64,000 nt of DNA from Bacilli bacterium (GTDB taxonomy: Bacteria > Bacillota_I > Bacilli_A > RF39 > UBA660). The stretch covers positions 1 to 64,000 of the forward strand of contig JAFRIJ010000014.1 in NCBI GenBank assembly GCA_017432825.1, in the 5' to 3' direction. Both the position numbers and the translations under genes were made by a program. Numbering within the stretch: the stretch's first letter is position 1; each line of letters starts with the position of its first letter. Positions 51,736 to 55,866 of the stretch are shown here, in pieces. The notes beneath the pieces were generated by a model. The model was not told where the DNA came from and did not search any database. It saw only the letters and a list, made by a program, of their open reading frames with translations.

Positions 51736-51755
51736 AAAATAGAGGGGTGATAATA

Positions 51756-52295
51756 TTGTCAGCATATAAAGAAATAGTTACCAAAGCAATAATTGGTAAA
51801 GGGAAAAAATATTATAAAAATACTTACACAATAGAAACAGAAAATGAACCAACAACAGTATTAGGATGTTGGGTAATAAATCATAAATTTAAAGGATCAG
51901 AAGTAGGAGAAAAAATAGTAGTAGATGGTAGTTTTGATGTAAATATATGGTATTCATATGATAATGACACCAAGACAACAGTAATAACAAAAAAAATTAA
52001 ATATTCTGAAAATGCAAATGTTAGGCAAAGAGAAACAACTGATAGCGCATCTAAGGATATAATAGTAAGAAGTTTAAAACAACCAAATTGTATAAATGCA
52101 GAAAAAGAAGGAAAAACAATAAAAATTGAAATAGAAAAAGAAATAGGAATAGAAATAGTAGGAGATACAAAAATAAAAGTTGCTATAGAAGACGAAGAAG
52201 AACCTTGGGATATAATTGAAGATAATAATTATAACGAAGAAGTAGAAAAAGAAATAAATGATAGTATTAAAGAAGATTATTTAAAGAAAGAATAA
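51756..52295 (+). CDS. cotE: Outer spore coat morphogenetic protein CotE
   Basis: CotE assembles the outer coat of the endospore. This 179-aa protein closely follows the Bacillus protein: SAYKEIVTKAIIGKGKKYYKNTYTI, then TVLGCWVINHKFKGSEVGEKIVVDGSFDVNIWYSYDNDTKT, then LKQPNCINAE, IEIVGDTKIKV and an acidic C-terminal tail. The start is TTG at 51756, set by AGAGGGGTGATAATA and by alignment to MSEYREIITKA of Bacillus. It opens a run of spore genes ending with gerM. Confidence 0.96.
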   Translation: MSAYKEIVTKAIIGKGKKYYKNTYTIETENEPTTVLGCWVINHKFKGSEVGEKIVVDGSFDVNIWYSYDNDTKTTVITKKIKYSENANVRQRETTDSASKDIIVRSLKQPNCINAEKEGKTIKIEIEKEIGIEIVGDTKIKVAIEDEEEPWDIIEDNNYNEEVEKEINDSIKEDYLKKE

Positions 52296-52350
52296 CTTCT
52301 TTTTTAGTATAAATAAATAATAATAGATAAAACTATTATTAGGTGATAAA

Positions 52351-52797
52351 ATGAAAAAGTTATTAATACTATTATTGTTACTACTAATAGGATGTTCTTT
52401 AAGCAATACTCCAACTTCTAAAATAGAAGAATTACTAAATAAATATCAATCTTTAAATAAAGAAATAGAAATTGATACAAATATAATAAATAATAATAGA
52501 GAATATGAAAATGAAATAAAAGAAATTATAAAAAAACAATATAAAAACATGTCATATGAAATAAAAGACGAAGAAATAGATGGAAAAACTGCAACTGTAG
52601 TAGTAGAAATAGAAGTATATAATTATAAAGATATATTAGATAGGGAAGCAGAAACAAATAAGATAATAAAAGAATTAAAAGAAACAAAAAATAAAATAAC
52701 GTATACAATAGAATTTAAACTATTTAAAGAAAAAGATAATTGGATAATAGAAGAATTAACAGATGAGCAAAATAATAAATTATTAGGTATTTTCTAA
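52351..52797 (+). CDS. Small lipoprotein, 148 aa
   Basis: The signal peptide ends in a lipobox (LLIGC, Cys near residue 15). The mature domain of about 130 residues has a helix (KIEELLNKYQSLNKEIEIDT) followed by beta strands (MSYEIKDEEIDGKTATVVVEIEVYNYKD, then KITYTIEFKLFKEKDNWIIEELTDEQ), a pattern like small NTF2/DUF4878-like lipoproteins. It lies between cotE and spoIIIAH, so a sporulation role is plausible but unproven. The ribosome binding site is TTAGGTGATAAA. Confidence 0.72.
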   Translation: MKKLLILLLLLLIGCSLSNTPTSKIEELLNKYQSLNKEIEIDTNIINNNREYENEIKEIIKKQYKNMSYEIKDEEIDGKTATVVVEIEVYNYKDILDREAETNKIIKELKETKNKITYTIEFKLFKEKDNWIIEELTDEQNNKLLGIF

Positions 52798-52814
52798 AAG
52801 TTTTATCATATATT
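52787..52814 (+). promoter_or_regulatory. Possible sigma-E promoter of spoIIIAH
   Basis: CATATATT at 52807-52814 matches the sigma-E -10 CATACANT in all but one defined position. GTATTTT 13 bp upstream (52787-52793) matches five of seven -35 positions. It lies inside the 3' end of the lipoprotein gene. Weak on its own, but the downstream gene is a sigma-E target in Bacillus. Confidence 0.35.
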
Positions 52815-52835
52815 TAATTAGAAAAGAGGAAATAT

Positions 52836-53333
52836 ATGATAAATAAAAAGAATCTATGGTTTTTAACACTATTTAGTTTAGTATTAGTATTAAGTGTATA
52901 TTATGTAACTATGCCAAGTGATCTATTAAAAGCACAAACATATAATGAAAACAACAAAAACAAATTAGAAGTATCAGTAGAAGAAACAGATGCAATATCC
53001 GCATTAAAAGTAGAAGATGATGCTAATACAAAAGAAAAAATAAATGAATTACAAAAAAAATTAACAGATAGCAAATTAAAAGTAGAAGAAAAAAATACAG
53101 TATATGAAGAAATAAAAAATCTAAATAATAATAGTAGTATAGAAAATAATATAGAAGAAAAAATAAAAAAAGAATACAAATGTGAATCATTTACTAAAGT
53201 AGAAAACAACACAGTAAAAGTAATAGTAGATAAATGCGAAAACTCTAAAACTTTAGCAAATAATATAATGAGATTAGTACAAGAAGAATTTAATGATAAA
53301 ATGTATATTTCTGTGCAATTTAAATCAAAATAA
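52836..53333 (+). CDS. spoIIIAH: Stage III sporulation protein AH
   Basis: The mother-cell half of the SpoIIIAH-SpoIIQ channel joining mother cell and forespore. 165 aa. The N-terminal anchor KKNLWFLTLFSLVLVLSVYYVTMPSD is nearly the Bacillus motif (VWLLTMLSLVVVLSVYYIMSPE). Then comes a coiled linker and the YscJ/FliF-like ring domain (about 105-163: IKKEYKCESFTKVENNTVKVIVDKCENSKTLANNIMRLVQEEFNDKMYISVQF). It is shorter than the Bacillus protein, mainly in the linker. The other spoIIIA genes are not in this window. Confidence 0.92.
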   Translation: MINKKNLWFLTLFSLVLVLSVYYVTMPSDLLKAQTYNENNKNKLEVSVEETDAISALKVEDDANTKEKINELQKKLTDSKLKVEEKNTVYEEIKNLNNNSSIENNIEEKIKKEYKCESFTKVENNTVKVIVDKCENSKTLANNIMRLVQEEFNDKMYISVQFKSK

Positions 53334-53339
53334 ATCCTC

Positions 53340-53366
53340 ACCAAAATACTAATTATTCATAAAATA
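53340..53366 (+). promoter_or_regulatory. Candidate sigma-K promoter of gerE
   Basis: AC at 53340-53341, exactly 16 bp, then CATAAAATA at 53358-53366, a full match to the sigma-K pattern AC-N16-CATAnnnTA. In Bacillus gerE is a sigma-K gene. It lies about 40 bp upstream of the gerE start codon. Confidence 0.6.
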
Positions 53367-53406
53367 TATTGAATATAGTATCCACCCTTTGGGAAGTGAG
53401 GAATTT

Positions 53407-53613
53407 ATGAATAAAAAAATATTAACTAAAAGAGAAGAAGAAGTGTTTAATCTCCTAGTTAAGAATAAAACAACAAGAGAAATAGCAGAAGAGTTAAAAA
53501 TAAGTGAAAAAACAGTAAGAAATCATATATCAAATGCAATGCAAAAACTAGGGGTTAAAGGAAGAGCACAAGCAGTGGTAGAATTAATTAAATTAGGTAA
53601 TATAACAATATAA
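53407..53613 (+). CDS. gerE: Late sporulation transcription regulator GerE
   Basis: A LuxR-type HTH protein of 68 aa with no receiver domain, the GerE size. ILTKREEEVFNLLVKNKTTREIAEELKISEKTVRNHISNAMQKLGVKGRAQAVVELIKLG is almost residue-for-residue Bacillus GerE, which controls late coat genes together with sigma-K. The ATG at 53407 follows AGTGAGGAATTT. A TTG at 53389 is in frame but overlaps that ribosome binding site. A terminator follows, then gerM. Confidence 0.97.
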   Translation: MNKKILTKREEEVFNLLVKNKTTREIAEELKISEKTVRNHISNAMQKLGVKGRAQAVVELIKLGNITI

Positions 53614-53636
53614 AAGTCACATAGTGACTTTTTTTC
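53613..53636 (+). terminator. Rho-independent terminator after gerE
   Basis: AAAGTCAC-ATA-GTGACTTT hairpin followed by a T run. Confidence 0.85.
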
Positions 53637-53662
53637 ATAAATTGTAAATAAAAGCATAAATA
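53635..53662 (+). promoter_or_regulatory. Possible sigma-E promoter of gerM
   Basis: TCATAAA (53635-53641), 13 bp, then CATAAATA (53655-53662): a partial match to KMATATT and CATACANT. gerM is a sigma-E gene in Bacillus. Weak evidence alone. Confidence 0.35.
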
Positions 53663-53677
53663 TTATTAGGTGGTAGT

Positions 53678-54640
53678 ATGTTAAAAAAAATGTCTATAAG
53701 AAAAATAACTGTATCTTCATTAGCTTTATTAGCGCTTCTATTAATATATATAATGCCTGATACTGAAAATAATAATACATATAAACTATCAACAAAAAAT
53801 ATAGAATATATATATAATAATACAAAAGAAGTAATATATACTTTAGATAAAAATAATTATGTAGCAAGAACTCTAATAAATGGAAGTAATAGTGATATGG
53901 AAGATAGAATAAAAAACATAATTGAAACATTAGTAATAGATGGAAAAAATAGTAATAATATACCAAACGGATTTAGAAGCATAATACCTGAAGGAACAGA
54001 AATATTAAGTTTAGATTTAAAAGATAAGATACTAACAATTAATTTTTCTAAAGAATTATTAGACATAAAAGAAGAATATGAAGAAAAAATGATAGAATCA
54101 ATAATATATTCATTAACTAGTATAGATGGAATAGATAAAGTAATAATAAAAGTAGAAGGTAAAACACTAGAAAAACTCCCTAATAGTGGTAAAATAATTA
54201 GTAAAGAACTAGATAAACACTATGGAATAAATAAAAAATATAACATAGTAAGTCCTAAAAATATAGAATCATATACTATATACTATGTTAGTAAATATAA
54301 TGACAATGAATATTATGTACCAGTAACAAAATATATAAATAATGATAAAAAAGATAAAATAAAAATTATTATTAATGAATTAAAAACATCTCCAATTTAT
54401 GAAGAAAATTTAATGAGTTATTTAAGTAGAGAAGCAAATTTAATAGATTATGAATTAAAAGATGACAAAATGACTTTAAATTTTGATGAATCAATATATA
54501 ACAACAATAGTAATAATATATTAGAAGAAGTAATATATACAATAAGCCTATCTTTAGGAAATAATTATGATATAAAAGAAGTAATATTTGAAGTTAACGA
54601 CAAAGAAATTTATAAAAAAAACATAAAAACTATTGAATAA
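53678..54640 (+). CDS. gerM: Spore germination/sporulation protein GerM
   Basis: A 320-aa membrane-anchored protein (anchor about 10-28) with two GerMN domains. Domain one is about 60-165 (YVARTLINGSNSDMEDRIKNIIETLVIDG...RSIIPEGTEILSLDLKDKILTINFSKELLD). Domain two is about 195-310 (YYVPVTKYINNDKKDKIKIIINELKTSP...YELKDDKMTLNFDESIY). GerM stabilises the SpoIIQ-SpoIIIAH channel in Bacillus. The gerE-gerM neighbourhood also exists in Bacillus. The anchor lacks a clear lipobox Cys. Confidence 0.93.
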   Translation: MLKKMSIRKITVSSLALLALLLIYIMPDTENNNTYKLSTKNIEYIYNNTKEVIYTLDKNNYVARTLINGSNSDMEDRIKNIIETLVIDGKNSNNIPNGFRSIIPEGTEILSLDLKDKILTINFSKELLDIKEEYEEKMIESIIYSLTSIDGIDKVIIKVEGKTLEKLPNSGKIISKELDKHYGINKKYNIVSPKNIESYTIYYVSKYNDNEYYVPVTKYINNDKKDKIKIIINELKTSPIYEENLMSYLSREANLIDYELKDDKMTLNFDESIYNNNSNNILEEVIYTISLSLGNNYDIKEVIFEVNDKEIYKKNIKTIE

Positions 54641-54768: not shown

Positions 54769-54795
54769 AATCCTTGCTATCAAGGATTTTTTTAT
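54769..54795 (+). terminator. Rho-independent terminator after tRNA-Arg
   Basis: AATCCTTG-CTAT-CAAGGATT hairpin followed by a T run. Confidence 0.9.
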
Positions 54796-54826: not shown

Positions 54827-54855
54827 TTGACAAAATACATATAATATGATAAAAT
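54827..54855 (+). promoter_or_regulatory. Sigma-A promoter of the large ncRNA
   Basis: Consensus TTGACA at 54827-54832 and TAAAAT at 54850-54855, spacing 17 bp. Transcription should start near 54862. Confidence 0.85.
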
Positions 54856-54859
54856 GAAT

Positions 54860-55308
54860 ACACATGGTGCATTATTCTAGTCATTTACACTAAAGGAAGA
54901 TAGGGCTAAAAATCTATCAATTGCGAAAGAAAGAAACTTTGTATATTTGCTTTTTTCGCCCAGATTAGGGTGAATATACAATTTAAAGATTAAGGAACTT
55001 TATAACGGCATATAAAGCAAATCCTTTTTCTACTTCGTTCCATAAACATATGCATGTCGTGAGTGAATGTATGGGATAGAAATTGAAAATACATTTGCAA
55101 AAGCGAATAATTTTAGCAAGTAAATGTTTGGGAAAACCTCTAGAATGTATATATTATAAGTATTGAAGTGCGGACCGAATGGCAATCGAGTAATTAAGCT
55201 GGTAACACTTAATTGTTTCCTTTAAATAGAAATAGCCGGTGGGTAACCTAAGGTAGGAAATAGAGAAATTCAACTCGACCTCAGCCGTAAAATTAATTTA
55301 TAATATAC
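54860..55308 (+). ncRNA. Large structured non-coding RNA, candidate OLE RNA
   Basis: This stretch of about 450 nt starts at a consensus promoter and has no open frame, yet it is clearly less AT-rich and more structured than ordinary gaps here. Local stems include GATAG/CTATC (about 54898-54917), GTATATT around a CGCCC/GGGTG hairpin, AAGGA...CTTTAT/ATAAAG...TCCTT (54992-55025), ACATTT/AAATGT (55090-55127) and AATTAAG/CTTAATT (55192-55214). GGTAAC occurs twice in loops. The RNase P CR-I motif and tmRNA ends are absent. The next gene encodes a small membrane protein that looks like OapA, the partner of OLE RNA. That context is the main basis for the OLE call. It is shorter than typical OLE. Confidence 0.55.
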
Positions 55309-55338
55309 CATAAATAAGTTTATTGAATAGGTGATATA

Positions 55339-55845
55339 ATGAAAAGAGATGATTGGATCTCTATTGTATTTATACTTACCTTTGTATTATCATTTATATT
55401 CAGTGCTTTTTCTAAATTAGCATCGAATATAAATGTTTTTATATTGTTAGGAGTATTAATAATAATATTATTAATAGGTATCATATTTGATATGATAGGT
55501 GTTGCAGTATTAAGTGCCAATGAAGCAAATTTTCATGCCAAAGCTGCAAATAAAATAAAAGGTGCAAAAGAAAGTATAAAACTAATAAAAGAAGGAAGCA
55601 TTACAAGTAGTATTTGTAATGACGTCATAGGAGATATATGCGGTATAATATCAGGAAGTATCGCTACAACTTTAGTAATACTATTATTAAAAAATAACGA
55701 TATGTCGCTAATAATAGTAACTGCCCTAATTTCCTCTTTAACAGTAGGAGGAAAAGCTATAGGGAAAAGAATTGCAGTTAAAAAAAGTGATGAAATAACT
55801 TTTATTGTTGGTAAAATAATAAATAAAATAAAAATAAAAAAATAG
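55339..55845 (+). CDS. Small multi-pass membrane protein, candidate OLE-associated protein (OapA-like)
   Basis: 168 aa with about four hydrophobic helices (10-30, 34-55, 105-122, 127-145). GIIFDMIGVAVLSANEANFHAKAANKIKGAKESIKLIKEGSITSSICNDVIGDICGIISGS resembles small proteins with a CNNM/DUF21-like (CorB-type) transmembrane region. That is the group to which the OLE RNA partner OapA is related, and OapA has been linked to magnesium homeostasis. It lies about 30 bases after the structured RNA and probably shares its transcript. The identification is from remembered family pattern plus context, so alignment is needed. Confidence 0.58.
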   Translation: MKRDDWISIVFILTFVLSFIFSAFSKLASNINVFILLGVLIIILLIGIIFDMIGVAVLSANEANFHAKAANKIKGAKESIKLIKEGSITSSICNDVIGDICGIISGSIATTLVILLLKNNDMSLIIVTALISSLTVGGKAIGKRIAVKKSDEITFIVGKIINKIKIKK

Positions 55846-55866
55846 AGTGATAATATCACTCTTTTA
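55844..55866 (+). terminator. Rho-independent terminator
   Basis: AGAGTGAT pairs with ATCACTCT around AAT, followed by TTT. It ends the ncRNA and membrane protein unit. An extended -10 (TGTTATAAT, 55882-55890) then starts the uvrC transcript. Confidence 0.8.

Follow-up and report, generated by a model that had tools for sequence, protein, structure and literature searches.

The locus at 54827-55845 of the window (the whole 64,000-nt stretch of DNA analysed here) raises the question of whether a structured non-coding RNA followed at once by a small membrane-protein gene is an OLE RNA with its partner OapA and, if so, which parts of OLE such a compact form retains. To our knowledge, OLE is among the largest bacterial RNAs whose biochemical function is not known, and natural deletion forms tell which of its parts are needed. 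The original prediction had proposed a shortened OLE system in a low-GC host, with an unnamed large RNA class as its fallback, and had named a covariance search with the Rfam OLE model, an HMM comparison of the 168-aa protein and comparative folding of homologues as ways of checking it.

OLE identity and layout of the locus

The covariance search answered the first part of this question, as the Rfam OLE model RF01071 matched 54848-55327 of the forward strand with 208.7 bits (cmscan, E 3e-57) against a gathering cut-off of 50 bits, and the match spans model positions 1-616, i.e. the full length, within only 480 nt. The other window RNAs above their gathering thresholds in cmscan are four tRNAs only, and the 1.16-Mb assembly contains a single OLE. 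The RNA, which had been described beforehand as about 450 nt of structured non-coding sequence, folds at -100.1 kcal/mol compared with -85.5 +/- 5.6 kcal/mol for shuffled sequences, none of which (0 of 100) was as low, and together with the OLE match this upholds the description. That 54848-55327 might be another large RNA class, such as RNase P or tmRNA, or an unnamed one, is refuted by the OLE match, with no other family matching the interval, and we consider its probability vanishingly small. The proposed shortened OLE system in a low-GC host was therefore right and its fallback is excluded; such shortened forms have already been published as OLE variants 1 and 2 (PMC11332333).

The following features make up the unit:

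54827-54855 (+): promoter of the ole-oapA unit, TTGACA, 17 nt, TAAAAT, 11 of 12 consensus positions matched
54848-55327 (+): OLE RNA, compact form, by RF01071 at 208.7 bits; 125 pairs, 97.3% of cells paired
55329-55335 (+): likely ribosome-binding site AGGTGAT of oapA, by its sequence
55339-55845 (+): oapA, assigned as the 168-aa OLE-associated membrane protein A (CNNM/DUF21-like) by DxxxD, the missing CNNM proline and the predicted fold
55844-55862 (+): intrinsic terminator-like hairpin closing the unit, overlapping the oapA stop codon

Both the consensus promoter and the terminator that had been claimed were thus recovered. The promoter is the best of the region, and a TATAAT-like box recurs at the 5' start of most compact relatives (alignment A2, see below). 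Because the -10 box falls inside the 5' edge of the RF01071 match, the 5' end of the RNA is probably near 54862, and the OLE transcript is likely to extend over about 54862-55315, ahead of oapA, with a length of ~450 nt. Since the tRNA-Arg gene directly upstream has its own terminator-like hairpin at 54769-54788, OLE-oapA looks like a separate transcription unit, in which the RNA and oapA are probably co-transcribed from one promoter.

On one flank the unit is bordered by genes for a Germane-domain protein, a SpoIIIAH-like protein and CotE, and on the other by uvrC- and mutL-like genes (from ORF reading). The first three of these, of sporulation type, lie just upstream at 51747-54640 of the window, in a genome of 1.16 Mb; a statistical link between OLE and sporulation genes is on record. 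In several compact relatives an L31-Firmicutes ribosomal leader follows soon after oapA (L060:3442-3475, L048:3592-3624, L041:3572-3605, L119:1161-1191).

Folding of the RNA and its protein partners

Comparative folding of 36 compact OLE RNAs (alignment A2) gave an RNAalifold consensus of 125 pairs, 81 of them with at least one compensatory double change, showing that the homologues strongly covary, and an independent count over the same relatives found standard pairs in 97.3% of pair cells. Double-changed cells numbered 662, compared with a mean of 177 in shuffles and at most 110 with partners slid by 1-3 columns, a control in which the consensus, derived from the same sequences, favours itself; none of 500 shuffles reached any covariation measure. 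Every consensus helix forms in the window RNA, with one failed pair, in P4a. With stems named after their places in the Rfam alignment and in the published model, the elements are:

54864-54868 with 55307-55311 (+): P1, closing helix joining the 5' and 3' ends, assigned by position
54873-54880 with 55140-55147 (+): P2, with palindromic CUAG element near the mapped OapA site, 99.7% paired
54882-54886 with 55122-55126, and 54890-54894 with 55112-55116 (+): P3/P3.1, proposed membrane-crossing stem (consensus helices 3-4)
54899-54918 (+): P4 hairpin with A-rich loop CUAAAAAUC, its equivalent being dimer bridge B1 in the cryo-EM structure
54922-54926 with 55050-55054 (+): P4a, region of the second mapped OapA site, weakly formed in the window (4 of 5 pairs)
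54939-54981 (+): P5, with loop GCCCA at 54958-54962, half of kissing bridge B2
54987-55031 (+): P6, whose GGC loop supplies the second half of B2, with an AAGGA/UCCUU pairing (consensus helices 8-9)
55032-55049 (+): short linker in place of P7 and P8, which are absent
55057-55060 with 55103-55106, and 55063-55072 with 55089-55098 (+): short P9, without the P9.3 arch and the palindromic kissing loop (bridge B3)
55151-55160 with 55297-55306, 55169-55173 with 55285-55289, 55181-55191 with 55273-55280, 55193-55213, and 55214-55262 (+): domain 2 helices (helices 13-22), within 55151-55306, length fully kept

The OapA site near P2 was mapped in other species, and the membrane-crossing model of P3 comes from the same work (PMC12265935), while L4 was assigned as dimer bridge B1 in the cryo-EM structure (PMC12286853). 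The window RNA has the B1 loop L4 (GCUAAAAAUC), whose adenosines are invariant across the 36 compact relatives, plus the B2 kissing loops GCCCA (L5) and GGCAU (L6), and the elements for both dimer contacts, for OapA docking and for P3 are all present. In Halalkalibacterium halodurans, bS21 binds an SD/anti-SD mimic in P6 of OLE (PMC12054373). The AAGGA/UCCUU pairing of the window RNA (54992-55026) sits at this position, its GG/CC being invariant in 36 of 36 compact relatives, although the host genome yielded no bS21 gene.

The protein encoded downstream, which had been claimed to be a small four-helix membrane protein, is indeed predicted to form four long helices, with an AlphaFold2 model of pLDDT 84 and pTM 0.75. 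In the HMM comparison it scored 32.3 bits against Pfam CNNM (cut-off 28.4) and matched an OapA profile built from OLE neighbours in relatives, the window protein included; NCBIfam holds no useful OapA model. As given in the text of PMC11332333, OapA is recognised by a DxxxD motif together with a missing CNNM proline. The motif is found at residues 95-99 (D95-VIG-D99), and both aspartates, G98 and C93 are invariant in 22 OapA sequences; the window protein contains no proline at all, and therefore lacks the CNNM proline. Comparison of the model with known structures placed it closest to CNNM proteins, i.e. MtCorB (7m1t, Z 14.0 over 129 residues, rmsd 2.4) and TpCorC (7cff, Z 12.2), whereas the first unrelated chain scored 8.4. 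A PDB sequence search with the OapA profile gave no match even at E 10, the fold comparison alone finding these relatives. By sequence and modelled fold we identify the 168-aa ORF at 55339-55845 as OapA, so that the OLE-OapA pair originally proposed is substantiated on both its RNA and its protein side, and the match of the predicted fold agrees with the published relation between OapA and CNNM proteins. Metal transport by OapA is not assured, as DxxxD has been gained and the CNNM proline lost.

Further known OLE partners were searched for in the host genome, which is 93.5% complete, so that single absences could be assembly gaps. No OapB gene lies between adk and infA in the host genome, where adk is directly followed by infA; in the distant OLE host G193, OapB is found between map and infA (PDB 7k9b, E 6.8e-32). 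The family-wide search detected OapB in 0 of 193 genomes, a weak negative obtained with one distant query and with no positive control inside the family. Pfam KOW was rejected as an OapB test, as the OLE control genomes gave only L24- and NusG-sized matches though one of them has a real OapB, and synteny was used instead. An OapC-type L7Ae protein was found neither in the host genome nor in the family above the cut-off, with controls such as B. subtilis positive. Ribosomal protein bS21, present in 176 of the 193 family genomes, was found neither in the host genome nor in its congener G123. Searches for CNNM proteins in the host genome returned OapA as the single one, and no CorC/HlyC-domain protein (MpfA) was detected in the 193 family genomes.

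Linkage and module loss among relatives

Across the 193 family genomes, OLE was found in 128 and OapA in 129, with 126 genomes containing both, 62 neither, two OLE only and three OapA only. Contig ends explain three of the five mismatches; those away from contig ends, both possible exceptions to the pairing, are oapA without an adjacent OLE (L163, genome G150) and OLE with no oapA found (L164, genome G034). The 19 nearest relatives of OapA that were scanned (20 loci when the Lederbergia-like L085 is counted) all have OLE at or just upstream of the OapA match, two of them being cut by contig ends. The congener G123 has neither, meaning either that the system is dispensable in the genus or that it is missing from the 90%-complete G123 assembly. 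In genome G025, a second OLE-like locus (L148:1756-2224 (+), 191 bits) was observed in addition to the full-length OLE at C14; it matches from model position 1 under laxer filters, is cut by a contig end, and may be a duplicate, a contaminant or an assembly artefact.

The close spacing of the two genes also bears on whether the RNA is only a cis-acting leader of oapA, e.g. a metal-sensing riboswitch, instead of a trans-acting OLE. Such a leader would fit with the RNA ending no more than about 25 nt before the oapA start codon, and with OLE lying 0-75 nt upstream of oapA in most compact relatives, but P1 closes the RNA ahead of the ribosome-binding site, and in other genomes the two are apart: OLE and oapA are separated by more than 1 kb in G005 and G036, they lie on different contigs in G003 (OLE at C3:30733-31341, oapA at C12:5011-5511), and the OLE of G034 has no oapA beside it. 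Considering, in addition, that OLE is the RNA of a characterised trans-acting RNP in H. halodurans (PMC9723947, PMC12054373), we regard the leader reading as quite improbable and interpret the RNA as a trans-acting OLE.

Comparison of module lengths, taken from an alignment-based count that draws module boundaries less sharply in some full-length rows (e.g. L005, L027) and in the 378-nt rows, located the shortening in two places. The stretch from L6 to P9, where P7 and P8 would lie, measures 49 nt in the window RNA compared with 86-143 nt in relatives of about 600 nt and 44-70 nt in shorter forms, and P9 measures 39 nt (37-76 nt in the compact clade) compared with 80-91 nt in relatives with the arch. 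The P9 loop of the window RNA has no palindrome, which in long-P9 relatives is mostly GGCC or AGCU, the tetranucleotides through which dimer bridge B3 covaries (PMC12286853). Where boundaries are clean, other parts have near-constant lengths, with 57-60 nt for the 5' part up to L4, 42-46 nt for the P3/P2 return strand and 183-199 nt for domain 2; the window RNA retains the stems of the OapA sites, the P3 stem, L4 with its A-rich sequence, both kissing loops (L5 and L6) and the whole of domain 2.

In a 73-row OapA tree, with module states set by length thresholds, the compact forms constitute one clade (support 99/97), within which the window groups with L032 and L033 (100/97). This tree requires at least three changes in P7/P8, two in the P9 arch and a single one in P5/P6. 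Four loci (L116, L117, L118 and L120) have lost P7/P8 but kept a long P9 with a GGCC or AGCU loop, whereas L025 has lost the P9 arch and kept P7/P8, indicating that the two losses were separate events.

These losses could also be read as the decay of an OLE relic in a shrinking genome, its function gone, as P7, P8 and the P9 arch are missing, the known RNA-binding partners were not found, and the score of 208.7 bits falls below the up to 434.8 bits of full-length relatives. A relic, however, does not account for the formation of all consensus pairs but one in the window RNA, the compensatory changes in most helices among relatives, the retained promoter and intact oapA, or the module lengths that stay constant across a well-supported clade, and we therefore judge decay to be very improbable compared with a maintained compact OLE.

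A further form came from three relatives (G106, G170 and G035), with OLE RNAs of 378-381 nt scoring 134-139 bits and lacking P5, P6 and P7/P8:

L149:1769-2146 (+): 378-381-nt OLE RNA without P5-P8
L150:1816-2193 (-): 378-381-nt OLE RNA without P5-P8
L151:1763-2143 (+): 378-381-nt OLE RNA without P5-P8

In these RNAs P4a closes as a simple hairpin, the P9 loop carries a TGATCA palindrome, and oapA follows 4-6 nt downstream. All three genomes have bS21 though P6 is lost, so that P6 and bS21 are uncoupled both ways, the window genome having P6 without bS21. The 378-381-nt form appears not to be among variants 1 and 2 as the text of PMC11332333 describes them, and a search of openly available article texts found no description of an OLE lacking P5-P8.

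Taken together, we consider it moderately probable that the OLE RNAs of this family were pared stepwise to a minimal core by loss of P7/P8 and the P9 arch, and in G106, G170 and G035 of P5/P6 too, with P1-P4, P4a, P3 and domain 2 never lost. That core would then be the functional heart of OLE, the bS21 and OapC sites would be optional, as would two of the dimer's three bridges, and the 378-nt form would represent a further OLE variant outside the published ones. With P7/P8, the P9 arch and every mapped partner other than OapA gone, the stems that dock OapA, the proposed membrane stem and domain 2 have been retained. An OLE of ~450 nt or 378 nt is also an easier structure target than the 577-620-nt forms, which are resolved only for the 5' domain.

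Proposed working and comparison with known systems

We are highly confident that the locus is a two-gene OLE RNP unit, consisting of a trans-acting compact OLE RNA (variant 2-like, lacking the P9 arch in addition to P7/P8) and OapA, its partner at the membrane. Work on other species reports that OLE dimerises and binds OapA at P2 and P4a, that the RNP is located at the membrane, possibly with P3 passing through it, and that it helps cells to adapt to excess Mg2+, cold, alcohol and the carbon source (PMC12265935, PMC12286853, PMC12054373). By analogy, the window RNA would dimerise via L4-L4 (B1) and L5-L6 (B2), and OapA would hold it at the membrane via P2 and P4a, where P3 would either span the bilayer or lie along it. 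The RNP may act in divalent-metal (Mg2+) and stress adaptation, a role of MpfA/CorC transporters in other Bacillota, and would do so in this host without OapB, OapC and bS21. We thus infer an OLE-OapA core particle with a putative metal and stress role, which would be the only CNNM-type device found in the host, a member of an uncultured lineage.

Like the full-length RNP of H. halodurans and the dimer of Clostridium acetobutylicum (PMC12286853), the window system has P1-P6, the A-rich L4, the L5/L6 kissing loops, domain 2 and an adjacent oapA, whereas it has neither P7 and P8 nor the arched P9 whose kissing loop makes bridge B3, all present in those RNAs of about 580-620 nt. In H. halodurans, OapB and OapC are required as well, and bS21 is required under cold and ethanol stress; none of the three was found in the window host. 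OapA shares its predicted transmembrane fold and the Pfam CNNM match with the MpfA/CorB/CorC (CNNM) magnesium transporters, but it lacks CBS and CorC/HlyC domains (only CNNM matched), and in it DxxxD is present and the CNNM proline missing.

Closer counterparts are the published variants, which the text of Fernando and Breaker 2024 (PMC11332333) describes as variant 1 from TANB77, with short P7, P8 and P9, and variant 2 from RF39, without P7 and P8, OapB and OapC being largely missing in the hosts of both. Because these variants, as described there, share such losses, a short P9 and missing P7/P8 do not exclude membership in OLE. With variant 1 the window system has in common the short P9 and the reduced partner set, although P7/P8 are shortened there and absent in the window RNA. 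With variant 2, following the same text, it shares the compact form, the origin from gut genome-reduced Bacilli, the lack of P7/P8, the retained OapA and the missing OapB and OapC, and the compact clade includes Candidatus Coprovivens, placed by GTDB in order RF39, the order of variant 2, so that the host most probably belongs to RF39 too. It differs from variant 2 as the text describes it in that P9 is cut to 39 nt, the palindromic kissing loop is lost and the host is also without bS21. Within the description available in that text, the window RNA is, from its sequence, assigned as a new member of variant 2 with a short P9, the OLE system and its shortened forms having been described already; the new details are that modules were lost step by step along the OapA tree, that P6 occurs without bS21, and that three relatives have a 378-381-nt OLE.
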